DNA of 64,000 bases from Flexilinea sp. (GTDB lineage Bacteria > Chloroflexota > Anaerolineae > Anaerolineales > Anaerolineaceae), in contig JAPKMT010000006.1 of the NCBI GenBank assembly GCA_026645735.1, forward strand, positions 1 through 64,000, given 5' to 3'. Below are positions 876 through 62,117 of this stretch, piece by piece (the stretch's first letter is position 1; each line of letters starts with the position of its first letter). The notes beneath the pieces were generated by a model. The model ran no database searches. It saw only the letters and a list, made by a program, of their open reading frames with translations, and had not been told where the DNA came from. Made by a program: the position numbers and the translations under genes.

Positions 876-998
876 CAGCGATTCGAAATATGAGAAGGAA
901 TATTCGTTATCGTGTTGATTTTGCGCGGAGCGCAAAATCAACACGATAACAATTTTTCTCTTTTTTCTCAAGAGGCTTTTGCAAATATTGAATTGCTG
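876..998. mobile_element. MITE-like palindromic element, copy 1
   Basis: CAGCGATTCGAAATATG...GAATTGCTG ends; perfect 21-bp stem, 3-nt loop hairpin at 906-950; perfect 9-bp direct repeat GATCTATAC at 867-875 and 999-1007. Confidence 0.85.
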
Positions 999-1008
999 GA
1001 TCTATACA

Positions 1009-1073
1009 CAGCAAATTGACTTTTCGAATCAATTAAGAACAACAATCCATTCTTTTCATCTTTCGAATTGCAG
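1009..1073. repeat. decayed partial copy of the same family
   Basis: CAGCAAATTGACTTTTCGAATCAATTAAGAAC...TTTCGAATTGCAG. Confidence 0.45.
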
Positions 1074-1143
1074 GCCCATCGCCAAATAAAACACCTGATC
1101 AGGTTTCGTTTCCCTGGTTGATCTCACCGCTCTAATTCCAGGA

Positions 1144-2511
1144 TCAACTCACCTTCATGCCGCAATTCTTGCAAAACGCCGCTCCAGGACGGATAGGCTG
1201 TCCACATTGTTTGCAGATGTTTACCGGTACTGGCGTTGCCTCCACCTTGGTTCCACAAACCTTGCAAAAGCGCGCGGTAGGGCTAAGTGATGCACCGCAA
1301 CTGCTACATACGCTTGTACTGGATTGTCGACTGGATGGATGGATGAGCTGCTGAACTGGCGCAACAGGAGGTGGAGCAGGAGAAATCACTGGTGGTGTCG
1401 GCGATTTCCGAGCACGAGATTGCGCTTGTACGGTCACCTTTGAATCTTTCGGTCGAGATGCGCCAGGCCGTTCGGCTTTTACAAAAGAAACTGGCTTCTC
1501 GGACTTTTTGGACCCCAGCATATTGGATATAAACTCAAAAACACGCTGTTTTAAAACCCATCCGCTAATCATTTGCGGCACGATTAATTTCTCTTCTAAG
1601 TTCGTTGGGATGAACTGCCAAAGAACGGATGACTGCAAACAATATATGGATTTCATAGCGTCATGTCCATCCGTAGATACGCTCTCCAATCCTAAAGTAA
1701 GATCCCACCAGGCCAAACAACGCAAAGCCACTAACAGGTCTTTGGCTACAAAATACACTGATTCTACTTCGCCGGGATATTGATTCTCATTTTCCAGCCC
1801 GAGATAGAATTCATTGACAAAAGCCAATAACCAGAATTCAAGTTCTTTCAGCGTCACCTGTGGCAAAGGTTTGCCAGTAAGGCTTACATAAGCAGCGATC
1901 AAAGATTCATGGGTAGTACCATTCACCCCTTTAAGGATCCGCTCGTGCCACGAATTCAATGTTAAGTTCAGTGGGCGGTTGGGACGCCAATTAGGATCGG
2001 GGTATGGATAGATCTCATTAAAAAGGTCTGCTAACGCAAGCAACGCAGCAAAACCGGATGGTGCAAGCGGAGGCAAATAATCCTGCGGAAAGCTCAGGTT
2101 TGAAATATGTTCCATGGGATTACATAATTCATCTGTCAGGGTTTGAAGGTAAAACGGAAAAATCAATTCAACGCCTGTATCTGGTCGGGTTTTAAGCAGT
2201 AAGATTTCACTTTCAGGAGTAACCTCATATGCGAAACTGCTGCTGACTGGTTTGCGGTGGTAACCCTGTTTGATGTGAATTGGCAATTTTGCCCCTGCCA
2301 TGGTTCTCAAATAGGTTTCCAATTGGTCAACAGGCAGCTTGCTTCGCAAGACTTCCATAAGATTTGAAACGTGGCGTTGCTCTGGCCAGCGATTAAGAAG
2401 AGATTGCTTTCTCAGTGGGTTATTCTTCTCAACGACAATGCCATAATGCTCCATTAAGAAAGCCAGTTCACCCGGCTGCAGCCAAATGCGGTTGATGGAT
2501 GCTTGTTCCAT
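1144..2511 (-). CDS. hypothetical protein with two C-terminal zinc ribbons
   Basis: C-terminal CSSCGASLSPTARFCKVCG and CKQCGQPIRPGAAFCKNCG; start placed at MEQASIN behind GGAGG rather than at the longest-ORF start. Confidence 0.75.
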   Translation of the reverse strand: MEQASINRIWLQPGELAFLMEHYGIVVEKNNPLRKQSLLNRWPEQRHVSNLMEVLRSKLPVDQLETYLRTMAGAKLPIHIKQGYHRKPVSSSFAYEVTPESEILLLKTRPDTGVELIFPFYLQTLTDELCNPMEHISNLSFPQDYLPPLAPSGFAALLALADLFNEIYPYPDPNWRPNRPLNLTLNSWHERILKGVNGTTHESLIAAYVSLTGKPLPQVTLKELEFWLLAFVNEFYLGLENENQYPGEVESVYFVAKDLLVALRCLAWWDLTLGLESVSTDGHDAMKSIYCLQSSVLWQFIPTNLEEKLIVPQMISGWVLKQRVFEFISNMLGSKKSEKPVSFVKAERPGASRPKDSKVTVQAQSRARKSPTPPVISPAPPPVAPVQQLIHPSSRQSSTSVCSSCGASLSPTARFCKVCGTKVEATPVPVNICKQCGQPIRPGAAFCKNCGMKVS

Positions 2512-2542
2512 TTTGTCATGACCTCCAGAAATCCCAGAAACT

Positions 2543-5500
2543 TTATTTCTTCTTGGTGGCAAGCTTCATGCTCTCAAGGTTACTGGATATGTATTTTTGG
2601 GTGAAATCATCCACATCTTTGCCTAGGCCTAGGTCGTTGATTAATTGGTTCGTCTGAGCAATCGATTTCGGGCTGAATTTTTCTTTTTTAACCTTGGTGA
2701 TCGCATTCATAACTTGCTGAACTTTCGGTTCGATCGTTCCAACATCGTAGTCCTGATTTTCATATCCTTCACGTACCTGATTAAGCTGTTCTACTCCTTT
2801 TGCAGCTTGAGCGTAAGCATCAGCGAAGGCGCCTTTTTCCATGCTGTCTCTCACCTTTGTTTCGTACATGAGACCCAGTCCTTGTGCGTCTTTTAATTTC
2901 GATTTACCCTCATGCACTTGTGTAATATTTGAGCCCACCTGTGCTTTTCTGTAAGTTAGTTTTTTGTTTTTGTCATGTACATACTTTTTTCGCCACGAAT
3001 CAGGATCTTTTACGATTTTGCCGCTTTCGTCGATCCACACAATCCCTTGATCAGTAAAATCCGGGCAGGCTTCTTTATTGAATCTTGCAGCAGCCAATTG
3101 ACCATGTGCTTCGGTATATTGCCTGCCTTCTTCCATGGTGAATTCTCTACCTTCAGCGGTTTCGGCAAAGATCTGATAAGACTTGCCCTGGTAAAGCTCT
3201 TCCTCAATTTCAATGAATTTTTCCTCGCCTGTATCCGGATCGGTTTCTATGTAACCCAGGCGATAATCACGATCTGTCCCCAAATCCAAACCGTCTTTCC
3301 CGGGTGTCCGAAAATCACCAACAGTTATTCGCTTGCCTTTATACTGCGGCAGTTCTTCCTGTGCCCAATTGACCAACTCCTCATCATGTTCACGATATAT
3401 TTTTTCACGCGCATTAGAAAAAGCCTCCTGTATCTCACGAGGGGCATTTTTTAAAGTACGCGTAGCGTCCAGGTCACCCATTATTTCCAACACAGCTTTC
3501 CTGTCTGTTACAAATTCTCCATCAATTTTTCTGGTTGCTTTTTTGATCTTATCCGTTGCCCATTTATATTTCGGGTCATCTAAATCCGCAGAACCAGTAA
3601 CCCCTTCTTGATCCTCGGTTTCATCCTGATCTGGGGTTTCCTCCTGTTCTGTCCAGCCACTTTCTTCATAAGCCTCCATAATGTCGTCATAAGCCTCTCC
3701 AGCTTTTAACTTGGCGAGCGACGCTTCCTTTGATCCTGCAATCTCTTCCTGTAATACCTCGGACAAATTCTTATCACCTTTTTTACCCACTAATTCGCCA
3801 AGGTAATCACCAATAACATCATCAGTGGCTTCCCAGGTGGTCATTTTTGCAGCTTCATAAATCGATTTCCCTTCAAGGTACAGCTCCATAAAACGAATAA
3901 GGGGCTTAATGATCTTGAATACCACCCAGCCAGGAATGACGACTCGCCAGTTGCTGCCGACAACGATTATCTGACGGTTTTCCAATTCCTTTTGCAGCCA
4001 TTCCATTCCTTTATCTCTGGCTGCATCTTTAGCGACTTTCATCATAGCCCAAACATCGGTGAGCTGACTCAGGATTTGTTGAATATATCCTTGTGCCCAT
4101 TCAAAGGGAGTCTTCTTTTCATAGATCCCGGCATTGATGCAGTCAATCAACAGATTTTTTACAAATGGAGCCCATTTCTGACCTGTCGGGCCAAGTTTTG
4201 TTGCGATGATGGCATTAAAGCAGTGATCGCCCGCCCATTCTGTCCATTCCAAAACAGTCTCAATCCGTGCAGCCCAATTGCCCTCTGCCAGGTAACCTTG
4301 TCCCCCTTCTCCCAGGATCAGCAATTGTGTGATATTCCAGATTTTTCGGCGCAATTGGTAGAGACCTTCAGGTCCGAGCACGGGTGCATATTTGTCAAAG
4401 ATCTCTTGCATCTTGCGTTGATAATCACCGGGGACAAATTTGGTGATCATAAGCTGGCAGCGCTGCATTTCCAACATGCGCTCAAAAATCGGCATCGCCG
4501 TCGTTTCTACGCCCAGTGTGAACTCAGCCGAAAACTCTCCCGATATTGCCATGTAATTAACTCGCATGACACGACCATCCACCAGCAGCTCGTGCTCGAT
4601 CCAAAAACAGTATCTCTCTGCTGCCAATCCGCTGCGTTCAAATTCGATGCCCTGTTTTTTGATACAGAGATTCCCAACTTCCATTGCGTTTGCAGTTTCT
4701 TCATCCGAAACTAATGAACTGAACTCAATGTCCAGTTCTCTCTCCGGGTTTGCTTCCAGTTTGCGTCTCTCTGGATTCCATAGAAGCAGACGGAAATCAA
4801 TCAATCGAGGTTCTTGACTGCCATCAGCCATCAAATGGAATGTGCCGTCACGTGATTGACCTTGTGTATCGATGAAGAGCCCTTCCTGATAAATCCCGAC
4901 ACTAACCCTTTTCTCCAGTTCTATTTCATCCTGTGTGGCAGTAATGTTGAGTTCACCCGAGGCATATAAACCGCCTGGGTGCGTGGTTAACGTTGAGTCC
5001 TTTTCGCCGCATTCGGTGATGACCAACGTGGCACTGGAATCCTCAACATCTTCAAATGAAATCTTGATCGGCAGGCGCGAATTATCCCAATTACAGGTGA
5101 AATCCCAAACCTCTCCGCTCTGCGGGTTGATCCAAAATTTAATCTCGGATTTTTCACCCGCACCCAACAGAAAGTTTGCCCTGTCAGGTTGGTACTCAAG
5201 CGTAACTTCACCTGCCAGGCCGATGGTGATGGATGCATTCAGTTCCTTCTCCTCGTATTTGCCACTCACCTTAATCTGAACATCATTAGGCGGTGGTTGA
5301 CTACCTGGATGATCCTGCGGTTTGGAAGCCTGAATGTAGATATACTGCCACTCCCCTTCTTTTGTTTTCTCGCTTGTCTCAAGCCAAGTCTTCCCAACGC
5401 CGCTGATTGAAAATTCCAGTGATTCTTGTGCTGCTTCCAGCTTTTTCTCATCTGTCTCACCTTCCACCACCACGCAGGCATAAACATTCAGTCCATCTTT

Positions 5501-8050: not shown

Positions 8051-8100
8051 CAGTCAATCGAAATATGGATTGACTTTTCGAATTAATGACTATTTTCTTA
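8051..8100. repeat. half copy of MITE-like element (long end)
   Basis: CAGTCAATCGAAATATGGATTGACTTTTCGAATTAATGACTATTTTC. Confidence 0.5.
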
Positions 8101-10370: not shown

Positions 10371-10492
10371 CCGCGATTCTAAATATGTAAAAAAAAATTG
10401 TTATTGTGATGTTTCTGCGCGAAGCGCAAAAACATCACAATAAAATATTTTCTTTCTCTATTTTATAAGATTGTCCATATTTCGAATTGCTG
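10371..10492. mobile_element. MITE-like palindromic element, copy 2
   Basis: CCGCGATTCTAAATATG...CCATATTTCGAATTGCTG; hairpin TTGTTATTGTGATGTTTCTGCGC-GAA-GCGCAAAAACATCACAATAA; no clear 9-bp direct repeat. Confidence 0.75.
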
Positions 10493-11565: not shown

Positions 11566-11695
11566 CTGCCATTCGAAAAATGAGAGGATTTATATGTTGT
11601 TGTGTTGTTTTGTTTTTTTGCGTTCCATGCAAAATCATAAAAACAACATATTTCCTTTTTTTATTCGAAAGGTTAATCTATATTTCGAATCGTTG
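11566..11695. mobile_element. MITE-like palindromic element, copy 3 (degenerate hairpin)
   Basis: CTGCCATTCGAAAAATGAG...TATATTTCGAATCGTTG; imperfect hairpin around ATGTTGTTGTGTTGTTTTG...AAAACAACAT. Confidence 0.65.
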
Positions 11696-13744: not shown

Positions 13745-13867
13745 CAGTGATTCGAAAAATGGATTGGCTTTTCGAATAAAGAAAGAAAATTATTTGATCT
13801 AATGGTATTGCGCTTCGCGCAATACCATTAGATCAATATAGAATTTTTTTATTATTTCAATTTGTCG
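13745..13867. mobile_element. MITE-like palindromic element, copy 4
   Basis: CAGTGATTCGAAAAATGGATTGGCTTTTCGAATAAAGAAAG...; perfect 20-bp-stem hairpin 13794-13836; flanks AGAATTCAA / GGTATTCAA match 7/9. Confidence 0.8.
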
Positions 13868-15775: not shown

Positions 15776-15901
15776 TCCGGAGAATTGACTGGGAGAACAT
15801 GTGTTTTGAATAAAGAAATGAAATAGGTTGTTCTTATGGTTTTGCGCTTCGCACAAAACCATAAGAACAACCAAGAATTATTTTCCTATTTCGAATTGCT
15901 G
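15776..15901. mobile_element. MITE-like palindromic element, copy 5 (left end decayed)
   Basis: hairpin GGTTGTTCTTATGGTTTTGCGC-TTC-GCACAAAACCATAAGAACAACC at 15826-15872; right end TATTTCGAATTGCTG. Confidence 0.7.
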
Positions 15902-19667: not shown

Positions 19668-19790
19668 CAGTGATTCAAAATATGGAGAGAATCATTTGTT
19701 GTTGTGTTGTTTTTGCGCTGAGCGCAAAAACAACACAACAACAAGTTTTCTTTTTTTTCTCAAAAGGTTTTTCCAAATTTCGAATTACTG
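19668..19790. mobile_element. MITE-like palindromic element, copy 6
   Basis: CAGTGATTCAAAATATGG...CAAATTTCGAATTACTG; perfect 23-bp-stem hairpin 19696-19744; flanks CTTAAATTC / CATAAATTC match 8/9. Confidence 0.85.
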
Positions 19791-19915
19791 CATAAATTCA
19801 AACCGGATCCTTATCTTAAGATAGACGACAAATTCATCCCATTTGGTTAAGATGTTTTTGTATGACCTACTGGGCTCATCCCTTACAGGATAATAACAAT
19901 GACAAATCGAGCTCC

Positions 19916-19978
19916 TGTCATTGCGATTATAGAGAAGCAATCTCTTTTCGTGTGGCAATCTTTACTCAATTGGACAGG
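19916..19978. repeat. dispersed TGTCATTGCGA...GAAGCAATC repeat, copy A
   Basis: Aligned by eye with 27934-27997; resembles a repeat seen in many bacterial genomes. Confidence 0.65.
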
Positions 19979-23211: not shown

Positions 23212-23377
23212 GTAGGGACAACCCTTGTGGTTGCCCGAAATCGACACGGTTCGGCATGATTCATTTTTTTGTAGGGGCAACCCATGCGAACGCCCAATGT
23301 CGATATGGTTCGTCATGGTCCATCCAGGGCAGGGGGTAGGGGCAACCCTTGTGGTTGCCCGAAATCGACACGCATCC
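23212..23377. repeat. tandem array of GTAGGGGCAACCC... repeat, about 2.7 units of 59-65 bp
   Basis: Units start at 23212, 23271 and 23336, each with a GGGCAACCC...GGTTGCCC-type inverted repeat. Confidence 0.85.
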
Positions 23378-23519: not shown

Positions 23520-23521
23520 AG

Positions 23522-23593
23522 TAGCGGGGACACGATTCGAACGTATGACCTCCGGGTTATGAGCCCGACGAGCTGCCACTGCTCTACCCCGCA
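23522..23593 (-). tRNA. tRNA-Met(CAT), initiator-like
   Basis: TGCGGGGTAGAGCAGTGGCAGCTCGTCGGGCTCATAACCCGGAGGTCATACGTTCGAATCGTGTCCCCGCTA; CAT anticodon, three G-C pairs in anticodon stem, unpaired 1-72. Confidence 0.9.
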
Positions 23594-26301: not shown

Positions 26302-26560
26302 TAAGATTTCCTCCGATTTTTTCATCCGTTGGAATCAGTCCGTCTTTCCATAATTCCGAAATGAGGATTATAGCATTATTTTTTATTCCAAAAAATTCAA
26401 TACAGCGATTCGGATTCGGGGTGGATTGCTGGTTGTTCCAGTAAGTTGGTGTTTCCCATCAAGCCGGAGGAACAGCAGCGGTTCGTTTTCTTATTCATAA
26501 GTCCGCTTTCCATGTTCAATAGCCCATCGGAAAGGATCCATCGGTTAAAAACTCGAATCG

Positions 26561-26574
26561 ATGATTATAATCAT
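26561..26574. promoter_or_regulatory. perfect 14-bp palindrome upstream of deoB
   Basis: ATGATTATAATCAT. Confidence 0.35.
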
Positions 26575-26586
26575 AATCAACTTTAC

Positions 26587-26611
26587 TGCTGCTTTTTACT
26601 AAAAAGCAGCA
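26587..26611 (+). promoter_or_regulatory. leader hairpin before deoB
   Basis: TGCTGCTTTTT-ACT-AAAAAGCAGCA, 11-bp perfect stem, no T-tract. Confidence 0.45.
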
Positions 26612-26655
26612 ATGCGAAATTTGAAAAATCCTTTTGTGTTAAAGGAGAACACCCT

Positions 26656-27816
26656 GTGAAGACAAATCGTATTATTTGGATCGTATTGGACAGCGTCGGT
26701 ATGGGACCCATGCCGGATGCCCATGCGTTTGGTGATGATGAACCGAACACGCTGGGACACATTGCGCAGGCCGTCCCCGGTTTTTCGCTGCCGGTCATGG
26801 AATCGATGGGATTAGGAAATATCGATGGAATGATCGGGTATCAGCCGGCAGACCGTCCCATCGGAGCGTATGCCCGCATGGCGGAGTTTTCTGCCGGCAA
26901 GGATACGACCATCGGACATTGGGAGATGGTCGGAATTCAGATGACCAGGCCGCTGCCGACGTATCCGAACGGATTTGGTCCTGAAATCATGCAGGAATTT
27001 GAAGCGCGCATCGGACGCGGAACGCTCGGCAACAAACCGGCCTCCGGGACTGCGATCATTGCCGAATTGGGCGATGAGCATGTCGCCACCGGCAAACCGA
27101 TCATCTATACCTCCGCCGACAGCGTCTTCCAAATCGCTGCGCACGAATCCGTCATCCCGCTGCAGGAACTCTATCATCTTTGCCAGATCGCCCGAGACAT
27201 GCTGACCGGTGAAAACGGCGTCGCCCGCGTCATTGCGCGCCCCTTTACCGGGACATCCGGCGCTTATGTACGGACCGCCAACCGGCGGGACTTCTCATTA
27301 AAACCGGATACGACGGTGCTGGACTTTCTCAAAGAAGCCGGTTATACCGTCGCCGCGGTGGGTAAAATCGAGGATATCTTTGCCGGGCAGGGCATTACGT
27401 ATGCCGTTCACACGCAGTCCAATTTGGACGGGATGCAGCAGACGGAGGCCTGCATGGAAAGATTCGACAGCGGACTGATTTTTGTCAATCTGGTCGATTT
27501 CGACATGAAATACGGGCATCGCAGGGATGCAGCTGCATATGCAGCGGGTTTGACAGAGTTTGATCAATGGCTGGGGACGTTCCTCCCGAAGCTGCTGCCT
27601 TCCGATCTTCTGATCATCACCGCCGATCACGGTTGTGATCCGACGCACAAAGGGACGGATCATACCCGAGAATATGTTCCGTTGCTGATGTACGGAGAGG
27701 ATGTCGAAGCAGGCCTGAATTATGGCACGCGGCCGACGTTCGCGGACATTGGACAGACGGTCGCCAGGGTTTTCAACGTTGATCCACTCGATGCCGGCAC
27801 TGCCTTATTGCCATAA
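26656..27816 (+). CDS. deoB: phosphopentomutase
   Basis: [57 protein letters not shown] start after AAGGAG. Confidence 0.93.
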
Positions 27817-27933
27817 AGCAGCGATGTACAATAGGAGAATTTTATTTACTGCCTGAGTTTCTCACTTTTTGAAAAACTCAGGAGTACACGTATGGCGATC
27901 TGTCATTGTGTGGAGAGCATCGACCCAACACAC

Positions 27934-27997
27934 TGTCATTGCCATCATAGAGAAGCAATCTTTTTTCGTATGGCACCCTTTACATAATATGGGGCAG
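27934..27997. repeat. dispersed TGTCATTGCCA...GAAGCAATC repeat, copy B
   Basis: Aligned with 19916-19978. Confidence 0.6.
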
Positions 27998-32684: not shown

Positions 32685-34256
32685 TCATGTGCATGGGTTC
32701 AAATCGGCCGGTTCAAAAATACTAACCCGATTTCGTCCGCTATTTTTCGCCTGGTACAGCGCCTGATCAGCATCTCGAAGCAATTTTTCAAGCGAGACAT
32801 TTTTGAGACATTGATGGCTGACCAGTCCAAAGCTTGCTGTCACCCGGACCTCGTCAGGCAATCCTTCAAAGATCATATTTTCGATAATACTTCGAAGACG
32901 TTCTGCAAGCTGCTGCCCCATTTCCAAAACCGTCTCGGGCATCAGAATCACAAATTCTTCACCGCCGAACCGGCCGATAGCATCGGTTTTTCGCAGTTCA
33001 TTCTGGCAGGTTGATGCAACTTTTTTCAGGACGATATCTCCTGCAAGATGGCCATACACGTCGTTAATGCGTTTAAATGAATCCAAATCAAAGATCATCA
33101 ATGAAAAATTACCACCATATCGTTCTTGACGAGCCATTTCCTGTTCAACAAGCCAGAAAAAATGACGGCGGTTAAAAACGCCGGTCAGATTATCATGAGT
33201 AGCCAGGATTTGAAGTTTGTCCAACAGTTTTTTCTCTTCTGTATAATGATACAGTGTAATGATTTCACCAATCAAATGATGATTTTGATCACTCAGATTG
33301 GTCTTTTTGATCCGATAAAATTCAGCATTTTCACTTTTAAGAACGGTAATATTATTCTGATCAACTGGCGCATTTTGAATAACTTCCATCATCGCAGGGT
33401 ATTGAGAAAACTCATCCACCGCATTTTTTCCAATCGACTGGTTGTTGAGATTTGGAAAAATTTCTTTTAGCTGACGGTTAAAATCGATAATCATGCCTAA
33501 TTTGTTCACAACTAGCACTCCATCCCGCATTCCGTCAAAAATTACATCGCGTGCTAAAGGGACCAGTGTCAGCATGTTCCGTTTGAATAAACCGACAGCA
33601 ACAATCAGTGCTGTAACAATGCAGCCAAAAGGGGCCAAATCCAACCCTGAAGGGGACAATCCAAAAACATACAGCAAACCGCTGATCCAGGGGACAAAGG
33701 AGCTGGCCCAGATCAGGACGGATTGACGCCGCAGTTCCGGAGAAGTGCTTACGATCAGCTTCGTAAACAACAAGGTACTGATTATCAAGAGGGAACTGAG
33801 ATAAATAACGGATACAACCATCAGGACGGTAAAATCATAGGAAAAAATTGGAAATGGACCAATCCAGGTAAAGCGCGGGTTTTTATGCAAAATATTAAAA
33901 CCGCCCAGGGTAAGAGCAGCCAAAATCACAAAAACAGGGATTACAAATAAAAGATAGATGCGTCTTTTTGAAATCCATTTCCCATTTCCAGTTTGATGCA
34001 ATGTAAAAAGAAACCAGAATGGCGCTGCAGTCTGAATACCAAAATGCTCAAATCGAACCCAAAACATGATTTGCGATAAGGAATTGCTGGATAATTCCAG
34101 GGCATAACCAAAACTGTAAATGGTCAGAGACAACAAACATCCTGATAAAAATAAGGAAGATTTCGCGCTGACCTTTCTGCGAAGAAACGTAATGGCAGCA
34201 AATATCGCCAGGAATCCGGAGGAGATGATCAGGAGAAAGATGACGAAGTTCCGCAT
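32685..34256 (-). CDS. HisKA_7TM-like + PAS + GGDEF diguanylate cyclase
   Basis: RKTDAIGRFGGEEF; start shares nucleotide with upstream stop (TAATG). Confidence 0.88.
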   Translation of the reverse strand: MRNFVIFLLIISSGFLAIFAAITFLRRKVSAKSSLFLSGCLLSLTIYSFGYALELSSNSLSQIMFWVRFEHFGIQTAAPFWFLFTLHQTGNGKWISKRRIYLLFVIPVFVILAALTLGGFNILHKNPRFTWIGPFPIFSYDFTVLMVVSVIYLSSLLIISTLLFTKLIVSTSPELRRQSVLIWASSFVPWISGLLYVFGLSPSGLDLAPFGCIVTALIVAVGLFKRNMLTLVPLARDVIFDGMRDGVLVVNKLGMIIDFNRQLKEIFPNLNNQSIGKNAVDEFSQYPAMMEVIQNAPVDQNNITVLKSENAEFYRIKKTNLSDQNHHLIGEIITLYHYTEEKKLLDKLQILATHDNLTGVFNRRHFFWLVEQEMARQERYGGNFSLMIFDLDSFKRINDVYGHLAGDIVLKKVASTCQNELRKTDAIGRFGGEEFVILMPETVLEMGQQLAERLRSIIENMIFEGLPDEVRVTASFGLVSHQCLKNVSLEKLLRDADQALYQAKNSGRNRVSIFEPADLNPCT

Positions 34257-35848
34257 TATGAACACTCTCTTTCCGAAGCATCTGTGTCTATCTGCTGGAA
34301 AATCCGGGTGCAATTCCTCCCGGCTTCTTTTGCCTGATACAGTGCCTGATCAGCGGATCGCAACAGGTCTTCCAAATTTTCTGACATCTGATTATCATAA
34401 TTGACGATACCAAAACTTGCTGTGACATGCAAATTTTTTTCAATAACGCTGAAATTCAAAGCCTCAATAGATTTTCGGATTCTTTCAGCCATACAAAATC
34501 CATTTTTCGTATTGGTTTTTGGAAGCAGAAATATGAATTCCTCACCGCCAAACCGGCCAAACAAGTCGTTTTCGCGCAAAGATTTCTTGCATTCAGCCAC
34601 AATTTTCTTTAGAACAATATCACCGTTGATATGACCGAACTGGTCATTGATCTTTTTGAAATGGTCCAAATCAAAAATAATCAGCGAAAAACAACCGCCA
34701 TAGCGTTTTATCCTGCAAATCTCTTTTTCGGCTGATTGTAAAAATGACATGCGATTTTTAATTCCGGTTAATTCATCAGTCTCAGCAAATTCTTCCAGTT
34801 TTTTCAGCAGGTTTTTTACTTCAGTGATCAAGCTGAATTTGATGATGAAACCCGCCGGTTGGTCATTCGTGTTTCTTAAGATACTTTTTTTTACCTGATA
34901 GTACTCGGTTTTTCCTTCATGGATCATGATTATTTCTGTATCCACGATCTGTTGGTCTTCCCAAAGAATTTTCATTTCCGGATGTTTTTCGAATATTCTG
35001 AAGGCATATTCGCCGATGCAGGTCCGGTTTAGTGCAGGAAAAATCTGGCTCATTTGAGAATTCAGATCAATAATCTGTCCTTCCTGATTGAGGACCAGCA
35101 TGCCATCCCGCATTCCATTAAAGATAATATTTCGCGCCAATGGGACTATCGTCAAAATATTTTGTTTAAGGAAGCCATAGGACAACAGCAAAGCACTGAG
35201 GGAGAAGGAAAAAGGAGTTAAATCCAGATTGTAAGGAGAATTTCCTGTATTGTAGATCAATCCGGACAGAAATGGTATGAAAATCGCAATCATGAACAGG
35301 ATGGATTGTTTTCTTAAAGCTGGCGTTGATCCAAACATCATCCGTACAATCAGAACTGCGCTGCTAATTAATAATGAATAAATATAAACCAAAGCCAGTT
35401 TCATCCAAATTGTCTGTTCATAATGAAAAATCGGGAACGGACCAAACCAGACAAAGCGGGGATTTGCATGCAGCATATTCTGTTTACCCAAAGTCATCGC
35501 GAATAACAGGTTGATGGCAGGAATGATAAGAAAGAACAGGTACCTCCTGTTTTGAATCCATTTTTCATTATGAGAGTGGCATAGTGTAAATAAGAACAGA
35601 AATGGAGCAATCATTTGGATTCCAATATGTTCAAAACGGACCCAATACAGGATCCCTTCCAACGAGTTACTGGACAATTCCATGGCATATCCCATTCCAT
35701 AAATTGAGATCGAAATCATACTTAGGGAGAGGAAAACCGCAGATTGTCCGGAAATCTTGCGTTTGTTAAATGAGATCATGGCTAACCAGATCATGGCTAA
35801 CGAAAAAATCATCAAGCTGATGATTACCAGGAATCGCATTGTCTGCAT
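34256..35848 (-). CDS. 7TM + GGDEF diguanylate cyclase
   Basis: RENDLFGRFGGEEF; paralogous to both neighbours. Confidence 0.88.
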   Translation of the reverse strand: MQTMRFLVIISLMIFSLAMIWLAMISFNKRKISGQSAVFLSLSMISISIYGMGYAMELSSNSLEGILYWVRFEHIGIQMIAPFLFLFTLCHSHNEKWIQNRRYLFFLIIPAINLLFAMTLGKQNMLHANPRFVWFGPFPIFHYEQTIWMKLALVYIYSLLISSAVLIVRMMFGSTPALRKQSILFMIAIFIPFLSGLIYNTGNSPYNLDLTPFSFSLSALLLSYGFLKQNILTIVPLARNIIFNGMRDGMLVLNQEGQIIDLNSQMSQIFPALNRTCIGEYAFRIFEKHPEMKILWEDQQIVDTEIIMIHEGKTEYYQVKKSILRNTNDQPAGFIIKFSLITEVKNLLKKLEEFAETDELTGIKNRMSFLQSAEKEICRIKRYGGCFSLIIFDLDHFKKINDQFGHINGDIVLKKIVAECKKSLRENDLFGRFGGEEFIFLLPKTNTKNGFCMAERIRKSIEALNFSVIEKNLHVTASFGIVNYDNQMSENLEDLLRSADQALYQAKEAGRNCTRIFQQIDTDASERECS

Positions 35849-36015
35849 TTTATATTCAGATCCGTATCAGGTTTTTTTGTACATTCATGTATGAAAAGAT
35901 TAAACCAGATTATTATATCTTGCATCAGGAGAAACATAAAAGAAACATACAACAAACAGCAATTCCTATGAAAATAGAATTCAATTTTCATTATCGGATG
36001 TGTAATTTCTTTCAT

Positions 36016-36060
36016 CTGCTATTCAAAATATGGATATGCTTTTCGAATAGAGAGAGAAAG
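36016..36060. repeat. half copy of MITE-like element (long end)
   Basis: CTGCTATTCAAAATATGGATATGCTTTTCGAATAGAGAGAGAAAG. Confidence 0.55.
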
Positions 36061-36156
36061 TATATTTTTCACATACTTTTCTGAGGGATGCCTTCCTTTT
36101 TTATTTAGTGTTCCGCGGCAGTTGATCGATTCAACAAAATGCATCCATGGGATCCA

Positions 36157-37722
36157 TTATGCTGTGACTTCTATTGGATAAGAACACACGCAATTGCGTC
36201 CTGAGGATTTCGCCTTATATAAAGCCTGATCCGCCGCACGCAGCATTTCTTCCAGTTTCATAGAATTCTGGTCTTCATTGCTGGTAATACCAAAACTGGC
36301 GGATATTTTTAGATCAATGTCTATTGCGAGAAATGAGATGTTTTGTATGGCAATGCGCATCCGCTCCGCAAATAACTGCCCTTCTTCCAAATTCGTCTCA
36401 GGCAGCAAAAAGACAAATTCTTCGCCTCCAAACCGCCCGAAGATATCTGAGCCCCGAAGGCAATCTTTGCATGTTTGCGCGACCGTCTTCAAAACAACAT
36501 CACCGGCAAGATGTCCGTACTCATCGTTGACATGTTTAAAATGATCAAGGTCGAAAATGATTAGTGAGAAAATTCTTCCATAGCGCAATGACCGATTAAT
36601 CTCGACTTCAGCCAACTCAATAAATCTACGGCGGTTATTGACGCCGGTAAGCTGATCGTGTGTGGCGAATTCCTCTAATTTATTCATTAATTCTTTGATT
36701 TCTGTATATAAATAAAAAGTGACTACTGTTCCCAACAGTTTTCCGCTGCGATCCTTCAGCTCCGACTGGTTCACCTGATAGTAATGAGTGATCCCGTTTT
36801 GACAAACTGTGATTTCTGTTTTTTTTATATCAGTTTTTTGCAGCAGCTTTTGAACGTCCGAATGAGCTGAAAACTCACCCGTAGCCAGTTTCCCGACAGA
36901 ATTGTGATTGACAAACGGAAAGATTTCAGTCAGACGATAGTTAAAATCAATGATTTGCCCATTCAGGTTGATTACAAGCGCAGCATCGCGCATCCCATCA
37001 AAAATCAGGTTTCTTGCCAGGGGGACAACCGTCAGAATGTTGTACTTGATGATTCCAATGGAGGCAATGATACCGCTGATTGTGAACGCCAATGGCGCAA
37101 TGTCAAGGTCATACAGAGAATAGCCAAAATAATAAACGAGTTCAGATGCCCAGGGGATAAACGCGCTGAGCCACAAGATTAACGTTCGAGATCTTAATGC
37201 CGGGGCAGAGCGAATCATCAGCATGGTTAATAAGAGGAAACAGATCAGGACCAGCAGACTCATGTAAACCACGGCGATCGCCATGATCGGGGTTGGATCA
37301 TAATCAAAAATCGGCATACCTTGAATCCAATTGATTCTTGGATTCAGGTGCATCCAATTGCGGTTTCCAAGTGTCTGACTGCTGAAGTAGAAAAACAGGG
37401 ATATCCCATACAGGCAAATTTTTGTGTAAGTATTCACCCATCTGTGATGTCCGGTCTGGTACAAAACGAAAAAAAACCAGAATGGAGCGAGAAACTGTAT
37501 TCCGATATGCTCAAAACGAACCCAAAAAATTACTTCATCCAGCGTATTGCTGGATAATTCAAAAGCATAACCAAAACAATAGATGGCTGTCGCTACCAGG
37601 CAAAATGTCAGATAAAGCGGTGATTTTCCGACAATTTTGCGCTTTGAAAAAGTGATACGCGCTAAAAAAACAAGAATGAATGTGGAGAGGAATAAAACTG
37701 TAACCATTATGAAGCGGACCAT
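36157..37722 (-). CDS. 7TM + GGDEF diguanylate cyclase
   Basis: RGSDIFGRFGGEEF; paralogous to preceding two. Confidence 0.88.
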   Translation of the reverse strand: MVRFIMVTVLFLSTFILVFLARITFSKRKIVGKSPLYLTFCLVATAIYCFGYAFELSSNTLDEVIFWVRFEHIGIQFLAPFWFFFVLYQTGHHRWVNTYTKICLYGISLFFYFSSQTLGNRNWMHLNPRINWIQGMPIFDYDPTPIMAIAVVYMSLLVLICFLLLTMLMIRSAPALRSRTLILWLSAFIPWASELVYYFGYSLYDLDIAPLAFTISGIIASIGIIKYNILTVVPLARNLIFDGMRDAALVINLNGQIIDFNYRLTEIFPFVNHNSVGKLATGEFSAHSDVQKLLQKTDIKKTEITVCQNGITHYYQVNQSELKDRSGKLLGTVVTFYLYTEIKELMNKLEEFATHDQLTGVNNRRRFIELAEVEINRSLRYGRIFSLIIFDLDHFKHVNDEYGHLAGDVVLKTVAQTCKDCLRGSDIFGRFGGEEFVFLLPETNLEEGQLFAERMRIAIQNISFLAIDIDLKISASFGITSNEDQNSMKLEEMLRAADQALYKAKSSGRNCVCSYPIEVTA

Positions 37723-37854
37723 ATTCTTATTCCTCCTTTTCGTATGAATTACGTTTCAATAGTGGATGAAAAACTTTTTTATAACACATGAACCAGTGCC
37801 CGGATCTTTTTCTTTTCCAAATCAATAAACGTTAAGAAGAACAAATGACTGGTA

Positions 37855-39243
37855 TTAATAATAGGGAGCCTCAAATGTAAACGTGGAGCCTTTTCCGAGT
37901 TTGCTTTCAATGTCCAATCTGCCCTTGTGCAGCTTTGCGACATACCTTACGAATTGTATCCCATTAATGATAGTCGATTCTGATCCTTCCATTGTAGAAA
38001 CCGCTTCATCAAATATTTTTTGAATATCAAGAGGCGAAATTCCTATGCCATCATCTTGAACGCTCAGAATCCAGGAATCAATCTCATACTTTAAATCGAT
38101 TTTAATCGGTTTGCTTTCGATCTTTGAGTAACGAATCGCGTTATCCACCAGATTGTAAACAGCCATGGTAAGAAGCCAGGCATCCCCGATGATCTTGCCG
38201 GTTTGTGACCGGCTGCCTTCAATTTTATCAATTTCAAAAAGGATATCCAGTTTTTTCTTCTTGGCAATTGGTTTCAAATCGTAGATCACTTCTTTGACGA
38301 TATCGCCGATCAAAATCGTTTCAAAGATGCCTTCATGAGAATTTTTGAAATGATTTATATGTTTTTTCTTATATCGAACGACCGTTGCAAGCCGGCGCAG
38401 TTCAACTTCAGCCATCCCTCGATAGTTGGTTTGCAGCAGATTCAGCTCTCCCGCGGTATTGAGCAGGTCCAAGGTGCCATTCACTTTCTGAATCAGCATT
38501 TCGATGTAATCCAGCTCGTTTGTATTGAATACTACCTGAGAAACTGTTTCTTCCTTGGGTTGAAATAAAAATAGTTTTCCGGTTTTTCCACCCGGGAACT
38601 TTATTTCATGCAATTCACAATGGTATAGATCAAAGAGATCTTGAAAATCGGAATCTGAAGACAATCCTGATCGGATCATCTGAATCACTTTCTCTTTGAA
38701 ATGCATCGCTTCAAAGAGAGGATTGGAGATGCTGATCTGATCGGGCTGGATCACGATGAATGCCGGAGTGTTTAACTGTTCCAGAAAATCGGAATAGCGG
38801 CTGGCAATAATCTGAATTCCAAAATCATTTTTTAGATCATTCGTAATAATTTCAGTGATCCAATCGCGAAAGTTTCCAAATAAAATCTGAGTTCGTTCGT
38901 TAAAATCCTTTTCAGCAAAACATGCCCAAAAACAGCCGCAATATCCAAATTCAGAGCGAATTGGCGAAAAAATTGCAGCCGAATTTTCAACCGAAAGGTT
39001 GGACAATAAACGCGATTGTTCTACGGAAGGGATGATAATGGTGGATTGGCTTTTCATGATCCGATAAAACTGATAATCGGTCTCCAAAAAAGCTTCATTG
39101 TTTTTTCCAAAAAACCAGGTTTTAATTTCTTCTTCGTTGATTTGGCCAGTCTTTTCATTCAAGATTAAACGAATAGAGATCGGGTTGAGAAATTGTGTTG
39201 TATCCAAAGCAGCTTTTAACTTCTTATCCGTTTCTTTTTGCAC
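37855..39243 (-). CDS. sensor histidine kinase-like protein (HATPase)
   Basis: N-box DNAIRYS, G1 box DDGIGIS; no convincing H-box histidine. Confidence 0.78.
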   Translation of the reverse strand: MQKETDKKLKAALDTTQFLNPISIRLILNEKTGQINEEEIKTWFFGKNNEAFLETDYQFYRIMKSQSTIIIPSVEQSRLLSNLSVENSAAIFSPIRSEFGYCGCFWACFAEKDFNERTQILFGNFRDWITEIITNDLKNDFGIQIIASRYSDFLEQLNTPAFIVIQPDQISISNPLFEAMHFKEKVIQMIRSGLSSDSDFQDLFDLYHCELHEIKFPGGKTGKLFLFQPKEETVSQVVFNTNELDYIEMLIQKVNGTLDLLNTAGELNLLQTNYRGMAEVELRRLATVVRYKKKHINHFKNSHEGIFETILIGDIVKEVIYDLKPIAKKKKLDILFEIDKIEGSRSQTGKIIGDAWLLTMAVYNLVDNAIRYSKIESKPIKIDLKYEIDSWILSVQDDGIGISPLDIQKIFDEAVSTMEGSESTIINGIQFVRYVAKLHKGRLDIESKLGKGSTFTFEAPYY

Positions 39244-39324
39244 GCTTTTTTCCCGTATTGTGGATTTTATTCTCTTGATTCAATATATTGATCAGCCATT
39301 CGAACTGTTTATTTTATTCTATTC

Positions 39325-39447
39325 CAGCAATTCGAAATTTGGAAATGTTTTCCGAATAAAGAAAGGAAATTTGTTGTTCATATGGTTTTGCTAGAAGCGC
39401 AAAACCATATGAACAACAAAGAATTCTTTTTATATATCGAATTACTA
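39325..39447. mobile_element. MITE-like palindromic element, copy 7
   Basis: CAGCAATTCGAAATTTGG...CGAATTACTA; hairpin 39370-39420; perfect 9-bp direct repeat ATTCTATTC at 39316-39324 and 39448-39456. Confidence 0.9.
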
Positions 39448-39450
39448 ATT

Positions 39451-40128
39451 CTATTCCTGATATTTGATTAAAGATAGTATTTTCTGGACAACCTGCTCCT
39501 GGTTAATTTGATCTGTTTCGATCAGAATGGCATCTTCAGCTGCTTTTAACGGAGCAAGAACACGCGTTGAATCGATCTCATCACGTTTCATTATATCCAT
39601 CAAAATTTCGTGAAAATCGGCAGTCATTCCTTTCCGAATATTTTCCTGATATCGTCTTTCTGCCCGTTTTTCAGGAGATGCCAGTAAATAGATTTTTAAA
39701 GGTGCATCCGGCATCACCACCGTTCCGATGTCGCGGCCAACCATCACAACGTTTCCCAGCAAGCCAATTTTCCGTTGTTTTTCTGTCAGGATTTTTCGCA
39801 CTCCGGGATACGATGCAACAATCGAAACGTTCTTGTCAACTTGAGGGGAGCGTATGGCCTGGTTGACCGGTTCTCCGGATAAAAGAACTTCAGTTTCATC
39901 TTTTTCCGTATTGACACGCAGTGTAATCTCCATCTCCTTTGTAATTGCTGTAACATCTTCTTCATTCGCAACGTCTCCCAATTTTTGGAGCGCTACATAA
40001 GTAGCCAGCCGATACATCACACCTGTATCAAAGAACAGATAGTCCAGTTTTTTTGCCAATAATTTTCCAACAGAGGTTTTTCCTGAAGCAGCAGGACCGT
40101 CAATGGCTATTTGCTGTGGTCTTATCAT
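39451..40128 (-). CDS. cmk: cytidylate kinase
   Basis: IAIDGPAASGKTSVGKLLAKKL, GRDIGTVVMPDAPLKIYLLASPEKRAERR. Confidence 0.94.
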   Translation of the reverse strand: MIRPQQIAIDGPAASGKTSVGKLLAKKLDYLFFDTGVMYRLATYVALQKLGDVANEEDVTAITKEMEITLRVNTEKDETEVLLSGEPVNQAIRSPQVDKNVSIVASYPGVRKILTEKQRKIGLLGNVVMVGRDIGTVVMPDAPLKIYLLASPEKRAERRYQENIRKGMTADFHEILMDIMKRDEIDSTRVLAPLKAAEDAILIETDQINQEQVVQKILSLIKYQE

Positions 40129-58030: not shown

Positions 58031-58124
58031 TGATTGAAGCCAACGATTCGAATTATGAGAGGGATTACTTGTTGTTGTGATTGAAGCCAACAATTCGAAT
58101 TATGAAAAAAATGATTGTCATTTT
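58031..58124. repeat. two 47-bp-spaced copies of a truncated MITE-like end with its flank
   Basis: TGATTGAAGCCAACgATTCGAATTATGA at 58031 and TGATTGAAGCCAACaATTCGAATTATGA at 58078. Confidence 0.75.
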
Positions 58125-58138: not shown

Positions 58139-58167
58139 TTGACTTTATCACAGTAAAGTGATAACAT
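58139..58167 (+). promoter_or_regulatory. sigma70-like promoter with inverted repeat in the spacer
   Basis: TTGACT-N17-TAACAT; TTATCAC-AGTAAA-GTGATAA at 58145-58164. Confidence 0.65.
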
Positions 58168-58193
58168 ATTGTCATGGATGAAAAATCCGATCT

Positions 58194-59021
58194 TTGATTC
58201 GATTTTTGAGGAGCTTTATCATGAAAAAGAATTCATTTGTATTAATTACTCTGCTTTTGACTGCAGTCGTCCTTTCCAGCTTTACATCGGTCTTTGCTGA
58301 TGGAAAAACTACACTTGTAGTCGGTTTTGACCAGGATTTCCCGCCCTATGGTTTTGTAGGTGAAGACGGAGAATTTACTGGTTATGATCTCGAAATGGCC
58401 GCTGCTGCAGCTGAAATCATGGGTTTGGAAGTCGTCTATCAGCCGATTGCATGGGATTCGAAAGACATGGAACTTGATTCCGGTACAATTGATTGTATTT
58501 GGAATGGATTCACCATTAATGGTCGTGAAGACAAATATGAATGGACCGAAGCCTATAAAGATGCAGGACAGGTCATTTTAGTCAAAGCTGATTCGGATAT
58601 CGAAACATTAGAGGACCTTGCAGGAAAAGTCGTTGCTGTTCAAACTGATTCCTCCGCTCTGGAAGCATTGGAATCCGAAGATTACAAAGATTTAGTTGCT
58701 GAATTCAAAGATCTTCTGGTTGTTGCGCAGTATAACACTGCATTTATGGATCTTGAGGCAGGCGCAGTCGACGCCATCGCCATGGACCTCGATGTAGCAA
58801 ACTTCCAAATTCAGGATAAAGAAGACCAATATCGGATTCTTGATGAAATGCTTCAGGCAGAACAGTATGGTGTCGGTTTCAAGCTGGGCAATACAGAACT
58901 GCGTGATAAAGTACAGAGCGCGTTGGAAGAGCTTGTCAAATCCGGAAAGTTTGCTGAGATTTCTGAGAAATGGTTTGAATACGATTCCTGTGTAATGAGT
59001 ATCTGCAAGGATGAAGCATAA
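58194..59021 (+). CDS. amino-acid ABC transporter substrate-binding protein
   Basis: Signal peptide; VGFDQDFPPYGFVGEDGEFTGYDLEMA. Confidence 0.92.
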   Translation: MIRFLRSFIMKKNSFVLITLLLTAVVLSSFTSVFADGKTTLVVGFDQDFPPYGFVGEDGEFTGYDLEMAAAAAEIMGLEVVYQPIAWDSKDMELDSGTIDCIWNGFTINGREDKYEWTEAYKDAGQVILVKADSDIETLEDLAGKVVAVQTDSSALEALESEDYKDLVAEFKDLLVVAQYNTAFMDLEAGAVDAIAMDLDVANFQIQDKEDQYRILDEMLQAEQYGVGFKLGNTELRDKVQSALEELVKSGKFAEISEKWFEYDSCVMSICKDEA

Positions 59022-59133
59022 TTAATAAAAATTTATTTGAATATCTGTGAAACTTGAGCGCCAGTCAAGATGGAATAACGAAAACTGCTGTCGCTCAATC
59101 ATTTTGAGTAACATAATACAAGGATGGCGGACA

Positions 59134-59171
59134 AAAGCGCTGGGGTGAAATGCAAAATTTCTCAGCGCTTT
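59134..59171 (+). promoter_or_regulatory. intercistronic hairpin (attenuator or mRNA processing)
   Basis: AAAGCGCTG...CAGCGCTTT. Confidence 0.55.
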
Positions 59172-59215
59172 ATCCTTGAATAGGGATCAGTATTTCAAAA
59201 AAGGGAGAGAAGGAT

Positions 59216-59866
59216 ATGAGTATTTCTGTGATGTTGAGCAAACTGGGTGAAGGGATGATAACTTCGGTTCTGATTTTTACACTGACGTTACTATTTTCAC
59301 TCCCGTTAGGTTTGATCGTAGCTCTTGCCAGAATGTCAAAAAATATCATTCTGCGAAATTTCACAAGGATCTATATCTCGATTATGCGTGGAACTCCCTT
59401 AATGCTCCAATTATTGGTCGTCTATTTTGGCCCTTATTATTTATTTGGAATCTCCATCTCTTCTGGTTATCGATTTTGGGCAGTCATCCTTGCTTTTTCC
59501 ATTAATTACGCAGCTTATTTTGCAGAAATTTATCGCGGAGGAATTGAATCGATGCCGCTTGGGCAATACGAGGCCGCCCGTGTTCTGGGTTATTCCGAAT
59601 CACAGACCTTCATGAAAATCATACTTCCTCAAGTTATCAAACGAATTATTCCGGCAATTACAAATGAGGTCATCACCTTAATTAAAGACACCTCTCTGGC
59701 TTTTTCCATCGCAGTAACAGAAATGTTTACCGTTGCCAAAGCCATAGCATCATCAGAAAAAACCATGGTTTCGTATGTAGCAGCCGGGATTTTCTACTAT
59801 GTGTTTAATTTTGTGGTCGCAGTTGTGATGGAATCTATAGAGAAAAAACTTGATTATTACCGCTAA
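59216..59866 (+). CDS. amino-acid ABC transporter permease
   Basis: IYISIMRGTPLMLQLLVVYFGPYY, EIYRGGIESMPLGQYEAARVLG. Confidence 0.94.
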   Translation: MSISVMLSKLGEGMITSVLIFTLTLLFSLPLGLIVALARMSKNIILRNFTRIYISIMRGTPLMLQLLVVYFGPYYLFGISISSGYRFWAVILAFSINYAAYFAEIYRGGIESMPLGQYEAARVLGYSESQTFMKIILPQVIKRIIPAITNEVITLIKDTSLAFSIAVTEMFTVAKAIASSEKTMVSYVAAGIFYYVFNFVVAVVMESIEKKLDYYR

Positions 59867-59878
59867 GGAGCGATAGAA

Positions 59879-60643
59879 ATGGAAATCTTCAGCATTAAAA
59901 ATGCTAAAAAAAGTTTTGAAAACAATCTGGAGGTTCTTCAAGATATTTCTATATCAGTCTCCAAAGGAGAAGTCGCAGCCATCATCGGTCCATCCGGTTC
60001 TGGAAAATCGACGTTGCTGCGATGTGCAACCTTGTTGGAAACAATGGACAGCGGCGAATTGATTTATTCCGGGGAAAAAGCAGCCTGGAATAATGAAGAG
60101 GGAAAGACTGTCTATGCTAGTCCAGAAAAGCTGAGACAAATCAAGAGCAAATTCGGATTGGTATTTCAAAATTTCAACCTTTTTCCTCACTATTCCGTAT
60201 TAAAAAATATTACCGATGCGCCGATTTCCATCCAAAAAAGGAAAAAAGAAGAGGTGATGCAGGAAGCTCAGGTGCTGCTCGAAAAAATGGGGCTCAGTGA
60301 CAAAGCGTATGCATATCCTTTTCAGCTCTCCGGCGGACAACAGCAGCGCGTCTCGATTGCACGTGCACTGGCGATGAATCCGGATATTCTGTTTTTTGAC
60401 GAACCGACCTCTGCCTTGGACCCGGAATTGACTGGTGAAATTCTGCGTGTCATTCGCAGCCTTGCTGCAGAACACATGACCATGGTGATTGTGACACATG
60501 AAATTGAATTCGCAAGAAATGTTGCCGACAGGATTATCTTTATCGCCGGAGGCGTTATTGTTGAAGAGGGTAATGCTGAATCGTTAATCAGCGATCCTCA
60601 AAATGATCGAACAAAAGCCTTTTTAAACCGTTTGCAGCGGTAA
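59879..60643 (+). CDS. amino-acid ABC transporter ATP-binding protein
   Basis: Walker A IGPSGSGKSTLLR, LSGGQQQRVSIARAL, FDEPTSALDPEL. Confidence 0.95.
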   Translation: MEIFSIKNAKKSFENNLEVLQDISISVSKGEVAAIIGPSGSGKSTLLRCATLLETMDSGELIYSGEKAAWNNEEGKTVYASPEKLRQIKSKFGLVFQNFNLFPHYSVLKNITDAPISIQKRKKEEVMQEAQVLLEKMGLSDKAYAYPFQLSGGQQQRVSIARALAMNPDILFFDEPTSALDPELTGEILRVIRSLAAEHMTMVIVTHEIEFARNVADRIIFIAGGVIVEEGNAESLISDPQNDRTKAFLNRLQR

Positions 60644-60666
60644 AATTATAGAGGATGGAGGTCCGC

Positions 60667-60963
60667 ATGTACGAGAGCAAAATACAAAATCCGGAAACAG
60701 ATGATTTGTTTCAAGCCGTTCTGGCACTGCAATCCGTTGAAGAATGCTACCGCTTCTTCGAGGATCTCTGTACTATCAAGGAAGTCAGCGAAATGGCACA
60801 GCGTCTTGAAGTCGCAAAAATGTTGCGCAATGGGATGACCTTTAATGCAATTGCAGAAGAAACCGGAGCGTCAACCGCTACAATTGCCCGCGTCAACAAA
60901 TGTCTTTTGTACGGAGCAAAAGGCTACACGACAATTCTTAATCGAATCGATCCAAAAGAATAA
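60667..60963 (+). CDS. TrpR-like YerC/YecD family regulator
   Basis: FFEDLCTIKEVSEMAQRLEVAKMLRNGMTFNAIAEETGASTATIARVNKCL. Confidence 0.9.
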   Translation: MYESKIQNPETDDLFQAVLALQSVEECYRFFEDLCTIKEVSEMAQRLEVAKMLRNGMTFNAIAEETGASTATIARVNKCLLYGAKGYTTILNRIDPKE

Positions 60964-60972
60964 GAGACAAAA

Positions 60973-61023
60973 TCTGTTGTTCTATTGCTTTTGCGCTTCG
61001 CGCAAAAGCAATAGAACAACAGA
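60973..61023. mobile_element. MITE-like hairpin, copy 8 (termini decayed)
   Basis: TCTGTTGTTCTATTGCTTTTGCGC-TTC-GCGCAAAAGCAATAGAACAACAGA perfect hairpin between convergent genes. Confidence 0.7.
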
Positions 61024-61071
61024 AAATTTTTTTCATGTTTCTCGATATTGTTTATCCTATCGTAACATAAA

Positions 61072-61848
61072 TCAAATTACCTGCCGCACCCATAAATCAA
61101 CATCCACAGCCTTGCCCGGATATTGAAACCATGCCAGAAATTCTACGTTTCCCTTTGGTCCAACCAGCGGTGATTTGATTAAACCTTTGGTTTCGTAATT
61201 CATCTCATTCGCTGCAGACAATACATCTCGCAGCACTTTCTGATGGATCTGTGAATCCCGGATAACCCCTGCTCCCTTTGCTGCTTCTTCCTTGCCTGCC
61301 TCAAATTGCGGCTTGATCAATGTAATCAGCGAACCGGTTTTGTCCTGATACCATTTCCGTATGACAGGTAAAAGTATTTTCAATGAAATAAAAGATGCAT
61401 CGACGACGACCAGATCGATTGGATCCGGCAGCACATTCACATCTCGCGCATTGGTCTTTTCCATCGAAATTACTTTCGGATGGTTCCGCATCTTCCAATG
61501 CAAGACGCCATAACCGACATCGATGGCATAGATTTTATCCGCTCCATGCTGCAACAGGCAATCTGTAAATCCTCCGGTTGATGCACCCACATCGACACAA
61601 ATCAGCCCTGATAAATTGGTAAGTTCAAAAGTATCCAATGCCCCAAGCAATTTCTCTCCGCCTCGAGATACGAATTGAGGTCCGTGATCGATCGTGAAAA
61701 GATCATTCTCACTGAAAGCCAAGGATGGTTTGATGACCATATTTCCGTTGACACGCACTTGTCCGGCCATAATTAATTTTTGTGCCAGTGTTCGGCTTTC
61801 GACAAGGCCTTTTTCTTGTAACAGAACATCCAATCTTTTTTTATTCAT
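61072..61848 (-). CDS. tlyA: TlyA-family rRNA methyltransferase
   Basis: S4 domain KKRLDVLLQEKGLVESRTLAQKLIMAGQVRVNG; VDVGASTGGFTDCLLQHGA. Confidence 0.92.
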   Translation of the reverse strand: MNKKRLDVLLQEKGLVESRTLAQKLIMAGQVRVNGNMVIKPSLAFSENDLFTIDHGPQFVSRGGEKLLGALDTFELTNLSGLICVDVGASTGGFTDCLLQHGADKIYAIDVGYGVLHWKMRNHPKVISMEKTNARDVNVLPDPIDLVVVDASFISLKILLPVIRKWYQDKTGSLITLIKPQFEAGKEEAAKGAGVIRDSQIHQKVLRDVLSAANEMNYETKGLIKSPLVGPKGNVEFLAWFQYPGKAVDVDLWVRQVI

Positions 61849-61995
61849 TCAATACTTCCAGCCAATTTATGGATTGAATCAAGTTCACTTTTCCCAGATG
61901 TGTCTTTGAACAATTTGGAAAATTGTCCTGAAAAAGGGGCACAATCTGACCTTCACCAAACCAGACCTTTGAAAAAAGGAAATTTTCTCTTTATT

Positions 61996-62117
61996 CAGCG
62001 ATTCAAAATTTGGAAAAATAAATTGTTATTGTGGTGTTTTTGCGCTTCGCGCAAAAACACCACAATAACATATTTTCTTTCTCTATTCGATAAGTTTGTC
62101 CATATTTCAAATTGCTG
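61996..62117. mobile_element. MITE-like palindromic element, copy 9
   Basis: CAGCGATTCAAAATTTGG...CCATATTTCAAATTGCTG; perfect hairpin 62024-62070; flanks CTCTTTATT / TTCTTTAAT match 7/9. Confidence 0.85.

Follow-up and report, generated by a model that had tools for sequence, protein, structure and literature searches.

The 64,000-nucleotide stretch of DNA analysed here (the window; positions 1-64000 of contig C66 in assembly G000, which comprises 86 contigs and 3.35 Mb and is 92% complete) carries repeated copies of a short sequence with a hairpin at its centre. These copies raise the questions of what kind of element they represent, how it spreads, and why the hairpin stays paired. The explanation that we judge best, with a probability of about 0.92 for the account as a whole, is that the repeat is a 123-bp MITE on which the transposase of an IS group would act in trans, and that its copies subsequently decay while the hairpin is kept up.

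Copies of the element in the window

An earlier note on this DNA described eight copies and one additional hairpin as a family of non-autonomous elements, and all of these are present where they were listed (Table 1). Ungapped repeat finding also groups the listed copies into families. The hairpin, described as having both ends decayed, is indeed part of a decayed copy (profile alignment 60961-61041, covariance model 60929-61050), and the single decayed end reported for the copy at 15776 proves to be the left one. The entries in Table 1 described as fragments or as a remnant are five partial copies that had been overlooked and were added by HMM or repeat matches, and the 9-bp target duplications (TSDs) given there are likewise new. 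All nine originally listed items are intergenic, as claimed, but this description does not extend to every fragment, because the one at 26607 lies inside an ORF.

Table 1. Members of the 123-bp element family in the window, with central hairpins and flanking duplications
Position	Strand	Feature	Hairpin	9-bp TSD	Remarks
876..998	-	Full copy	906-950	Exact, GATCTATAC, at 867-875 and 999-1007	
1035..1073	+	Fragment			Profile positions 85-123, E 5.6e-4
8051..8085	+	Lone left-end remnant			Start approximate; below profile threshold
10371..10492	-	Full copy	10401-10443	Not recognisable	
11566..11695	-	Full copy		Not recognisable	7-bp insertion in hairpin, imperfect stem
13745..13867	+	Full copy	13794-13836	7/9	
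15776..15901	+	Copy with decayed left end	15826-15872		
19668..19790	-	Full copy	19696-19744	8/9	
26607..26652	+	Left-half fragment			Within ORF 26446-27816
36017..36080	+	Left-half fragment			Profile E 5e-8
39325..39447	+	Full copy	39370-39420	Exact, ATTCTATTC, at 39316-39324 and 39448-39456	HATPase gene and cytidylate-kinase gene as neighbours, one per side
58041..58081	-	Right-half fragment			Profile E 3.5e-5
60929..61050	+	Copy with both ends decayed	60973-61023		Perfect private stem
61996..62117	-	Full copy	62024-62070	7/9	

At 58041-58100, half an element precedes a second occurrence of its own flanking sequence (GATTGAAGC), after which comes another end; this arrangement looks like a rearranged insertion. 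A separate feature of the window is a run of consecutive minus-strand genes at 32685-39243 encoding proteins of 542, 530, 521 and 462 aa. A 149-nt segment recurs in the first three at 65-72% identity, a histidine-kinase ATPase domain is present in the last, and the run is perhaps a tandem gene expansion.

Abundance and placement in the genome

Building a covariance model and looking for further copies had been proposed as checks on the family. Iterated nhmmer searches with a sequence-only profile covered 789 kb of the same genome (six contigs, 24% of the total). They identified 169 copies or fragments that do not overlap, including 80 at full length, and a covariance-model search agrees with this count. 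Copies and fragments recur once every 4.7 kb on average, are spread evenly over the six contigs (range 3.8-5.1 kb) and together make up 2.1% of the sampled DNA. Extrapolated from this 24%, the 3.35-Mb genome would hold approximately 720 copies and fragments, of which approximately 340 are full length. Given that the terminal inverted repeat (TIR) pattern CAGYAATTCGAAATWTGG, with up to three mismatches, yields 549 + 498 = 1,047 matches in the 3.35 Mb versus 3 + 0 for a reversed control pattern, chance is excluded.

The size class is tight, with lengths clustering at 120-125 bp. Short forms of 45-81 bp lack the hairpin and keep their TSDs, and because their breakpoints are scattered we read them as later deletions; the same scatter speaks against a separately amplified hairpin-less subfamily. 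Six of the 169 copies and fragments are embedded by more than 60 bp in an ORF of 130 aa or longer, and the remainder are located in gaps, at gene edges or at contig ends, with 138 gaps occupied. Insertions into genes would mostly be lost through selection, leaving the intergenic copies, which may afterwards decay and be trimmed by internal deletions.

Target duplications and distribution among relatives

When the flanks of the 80 full copies are compared as direct repeats, identity reaches 67.8% at k=9 versus 29.4% for shuffled pairing, and it stays near background at other values of k. The 9-bp TSD is exact in 19 of these copies and matches at 8 or more of the 9 positions in 37. Such a duplication is difficult to reconcile with REP/BIME-like repeats spread by a RAYT (Y1 transposase), a reading invited by the palindromic structure, intergenic location and very high abundance of the element. 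No GTAG/CGTC-tagged end is present, and a DDE-type IS carries the same ends (see below). The TSDs and this DDE partner contradict the REP/RAYT reading, which we regard as highly improbable.

A census of TIR matches with at most two mismatches in 101 genomes returned 715 in the host genome, 752 and 156 in two congeners and 11 in another, 0-1 in ten more congeners, and 0-6 in the remaining genomes except for one of another genus (G028) with 40. This patchiness fits mobile amplification and does not fit vertical inheritance of a functional RNA. The congener G010 (three contigs, 97% complete) has an element load similar to that of the host, and within the sampled stretches the two genomes have just four conserved neighbour pairs in common.

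The 40 TIR-like matches in G028 turned out to belong to a different, longer family. Its members (L095, L096, L105 and L106) are non-autonomous elements of 350-1,414 bp with ends CAGCAATTCTCAATATGG and 8-10 bp duplications.

A candidate autonomous partner

The earlier note had also suggested a search for an IS or RAYT-like transposase with matching ends. This search succeeded in the congener G010, where a DDE IS was found, and returned none in the host genome. The congener element, located through a DDE_Tnp_1 search, is a single-copy IS of 1,632 bp (L110, 821-2452) with ends CAGCAATTCGAAATATGA and CAGTAATTCGAAAAATGA, whose TIRs match at 16 of 18 positions. It is flanked by an exact 9-bp duplication (GCATTCTGT) and has an intact ORF for a 446-aa DDE transposase at 949-2289. 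An IS or transposase of this type was absent from the host assembly (86 contigs, 92% complete) and from assemblies G003, G008 and G028.

Other potential mobilisers were examined and set aside. The sole DDE_Tnp_1 match of the host genome (L068) is a 5'-truncated member of the IS1634 family that simply has a separate MITE copy nearby, after it, and the complete IS1634 copy (L109) lacks MITE-type ends. TIR pairs spaced 1-4 kb apart in the host genome (contigs C3, C4 and C22) enclose ordinary or hypothetical genes and no transposases.

The L110 transposase is not readily assigned to a family by profile. Its PF13808 score of 20.6 bits is below the cut-off of 32.3 and there is no NCBIfam match, which together argue against ISAs1; PF01609 is also below cut-off. 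The IS4 family is not supported by profiles, with no NCBIfam IS4 match for the partner and a best weak match of 4.5e-6 among its relatives. A tblastn search with the protein recovered relatives on cyanobacterial and proteobacterial plasmids (E 2e-92), one of which is annotated ISNCY. Closer relatives are 35-40% identical to the partner, with D128, D216 and E344 invariant, and 506 genome-contig stretches encode a relative. In cyanobacteria, Chloroflexota and proteobacteria these relatives are bounded by CAGCAATTC ends, and their duplications are mostly of 9 bp; those in other phyla have ends CAGCAATTCTCATTTTG and exact TSDs, mostly of 9 bp, and the Calothrix and Anabaena elements have ends CAGCAATTCTCATTTTRA and exact 9-bp duplications. 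Among 11 relatives with filter-detected ends, nine end in CAGCARTTC and eight have a 9-bp TSD. A transposase of this CAGCAATTC-ended group was not found in G028.

With its homologous DDE transposase, CAGCAATTC-type ends and 9-bp TSD, the L110 element can be placed with the ISNCY-type group. Its placement is based on homology, end sequence and target duplication, and transposition itself we infer. Given that the congener IS and the transposase relatives share ends and mostly 9-bp duplications, the sequence evidence indicates that the element is a MITE and that its mobiliser is a diverged group of DDE transposases, named ISNCY in RefSeq. The transposase (catalytic triad D128, D216, E344) would act in trans on the TIRs of the MITE. 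The MITE and the L110 IS have little in common beyond their ends, and therefore the former did not arise from the latter simply by internal deletion.

Thus, the original proposal of a non-autonomous mobile element is well supported: the repeat has TIRs of approximately 18 bp, a fixed 9-bp TSD, a small, non-coding sequence of uniform length, several hundred copies and a patchy occurrence in relatives, and its ends match those of an autonomous IS, albeit one in a congener and not in the same assembly.

Comparison with known elements

It is already known that MITEs can be moved by ISs. Here, a hyper-abundant MITE is linked to a candidate autonomous partner and to an end signature that recurs across phyla. 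A search of the literature found no described MITE for the host group.

The closest described analogue is probably Nezha of cyanobacteria, a likeness drawn from descriptions of the element. Nezha is similar in size to the 123-bp MITE and likewise has a hairpin and a 9-bp TSD. Zhou et al. 2008 (BBRC 365:790) reportedly proposed its mobilisation by ISNpu3-like elements. Like the 123-bp MITE, Nezha is short and non-coding, and it is the published cyanobacterial case of a MITE whose movement is attributed to an IS, here ISNpu3-like elements of the same host (PMC3049150). A further link is that cyanobacterial relatives of the partner transposase carry CAGCAATTCTC at their ends and are flanked by exact 9-bp TSDs; a 50-kb portion of plasmid A from T. 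variabilis contained no such ends. The two MITEs differ in host phylum and density and probably also in internal sequence.

ISNCY-annotated DDE elements with CAGCAATTC ends (e.g. Gloeothece WP_013335080.1) share the invariant D, D and E with the partner, and those with detected ends, from which the Gloeothece element is excluded, agree with it in the last 9 nt and are mostly flanked by a TSD of 9 bp. These are autonomous ISs, whereas the window element is non-coding and has its own interior.

In copy number the 123-bp MITE is on par with ERIC of Enterobacteriaceae, which with 711 copies in Photorhabdus luminescens is the most abundant bacterial MITE in a 2024 review (PMC10969869). ERIC is likewise palindromic and intergenic but has different ends; a partner is identified for the 123-bp MITE, and the density of the latter looks higher (approximately 720 extrapolated copies and fragments in 3.35 Mb).

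Maintenance of the central hairpin

The stem stays almost perfectly paired while its sequence drifts. In the five copies tested (six folds), folding energies are 6-11 SD lower than those of dinucleotide shuffles. The stems form two subfamilies (CTTATGG type and GTGTTG type), and within them the arms covary, with 4.8% and 2.5% of pairs mismatched versus 17% and 10% after right arms are reassigned among copies. For the TIR pairs of these copies the mismatch rate is 27.8%.

This strong compensation and the consistently low folding energies could indicate a functional RNA, such as a terminator or an mRNA-stability or processing element, whose stem is kept by RNA selection and was only spread by mobility. 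Some copies with decayed ends retain a perfect stem, and published MITEs are transcribed and alter neighbouring mRNAs (PMC3733652, PMC3049150). Nevertheless, the shares of copies in tandem, divergent and convergent gaps (0.55/0.32/0.13) follow the shares of gap length (0.58/0.28/0.14), there is no orientation bias (45:41) and no excess downstream of genes, and a terminator role is rejected because copies are not in excess between convergent genes. Stem mismatches are without a wobble bias (G-T/T-G 16, A-C/C-A 17), and an Rfam scan of the window matched no family besides one tRNA. RNA selection predicts neither this absence of wobble bias nor loop inversion, yet the loops flip freely. We consider RNA selection an unlikely main cause.

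The evidence for flipping is that a given three-base loop and its reverse-complement form are found in similar numbers (TTC 15/GAA 14, AAA 8/TTT 5, GGA 6/TCC 4). This symmetry (25 versus 3.9 under the null, a value reached by none of 20,000 draws) is evident in both subfamilies and is not expected from substitution. Between nearest relatives, loop orientation is random, being the same in 30 cases and flipped in 31; 57 of 63 copies belong to the same stem subfamily as their nearest relative.

The latter agreement means that compensated variants partly follow subfamilies, as they would if transposition required the stem, for example as an accessory transposase site or DNA fold, and compensation were inherited from master copies. 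Stem mismatch is also lowest with intact ends and grows with end decay (0.055, 0.104, 0.15). Set against this, hairpin-less elements of 45-81 bp keep TSDs, although their scattered breakpoints suggest later deletion, no such stem requirement is seen in the autonomous relatives, and inheritance alone does not account for loops being inverted at close to 50:50 in each of the subfamilies. We view a transposition requirement as somewhat less probable still than RNA selection.

There remains template switching during replication of the DNA palindrome, which predicts correction of one arm by the other and occasional inversion of the loop (PMC8794818). Beyond a priming patch close to the loop, the switch would use one arm as the template for the other, and it would sometimes invert the loop. 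Compensated and uncompensated changes number 7:37 in pairs 1-6, next to the loop, and 72:14 in pairs 7-20 (odds ratio 27, or 24 with G-C pairs alone), where copies are counted rather than independent events, and the register is the one that maximises pairing. The loop-proximal patch may be needed for priming and would thus escape correction. Compensated stems, flipped loops and loop-adjacent mismatches suggest, but do not prove, DNA template switching over RNA-level selection. Given that copies with decayed ends mismatch more, which relaxed selection would produce as well, and that shared ancestry inflates the counts, we put the odds near even, with perhaps a slight lean towards template switching as the main process that keeps the stem near-perfectly paired.

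A second family was located through the shared end signature. In Pseudanabaena biceps (L219-L241), a 131-bp MITE with CAGCAATTCTCATTATGA ends and at least 23 copies forms two long hairpins, and its TSD matches at 8 or more of 9 positions in 17 of 23 copies. It resembles the 123-bp MITE in TIR group and 9-bp TSD and repeats all three signs, namely compensated stems, inverted loops and loop-proximal uncompensated changes; it differs in having two hairpins, an unrelated interior and a host of another phylum. It is an evenly balanced proposition that template switching, and not RNA selection, keeps the hairpins and randomises loop orientation, and does so independently in two MITE families and phyla.

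Template switching has been proposed as a source of compensatory changes in hairpins, where compensatory changes with loop inversion were found extremely rare and the evidence for stem maintenance was called circumstantial (PMC8794818). Hundreds of repeats with no evident RNA role allow a test of such maintenance. If the proposal is true, dispersed hairpins would constitute a natural record of arm-to-arm correction and frequent loop inversion.

Other repeats in the window

Three tandem units of the form GTAGGG(G/A)CAACCC...GGTTGCCC at 23212-23372 adjoin a tRNA gene (23522-23593, minus strand). These units are reminiscent of the GTAG-tagged palindromic repeats in PMC3733652, and similar ones are found in gaps of G010 and within the G028 elements. 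A second dispersed repeat, CTGTCATTGCGATTATAGAGAAGCAATCT, is present at 19915-19970 and 27933-27988 in copies that are 86% identical.
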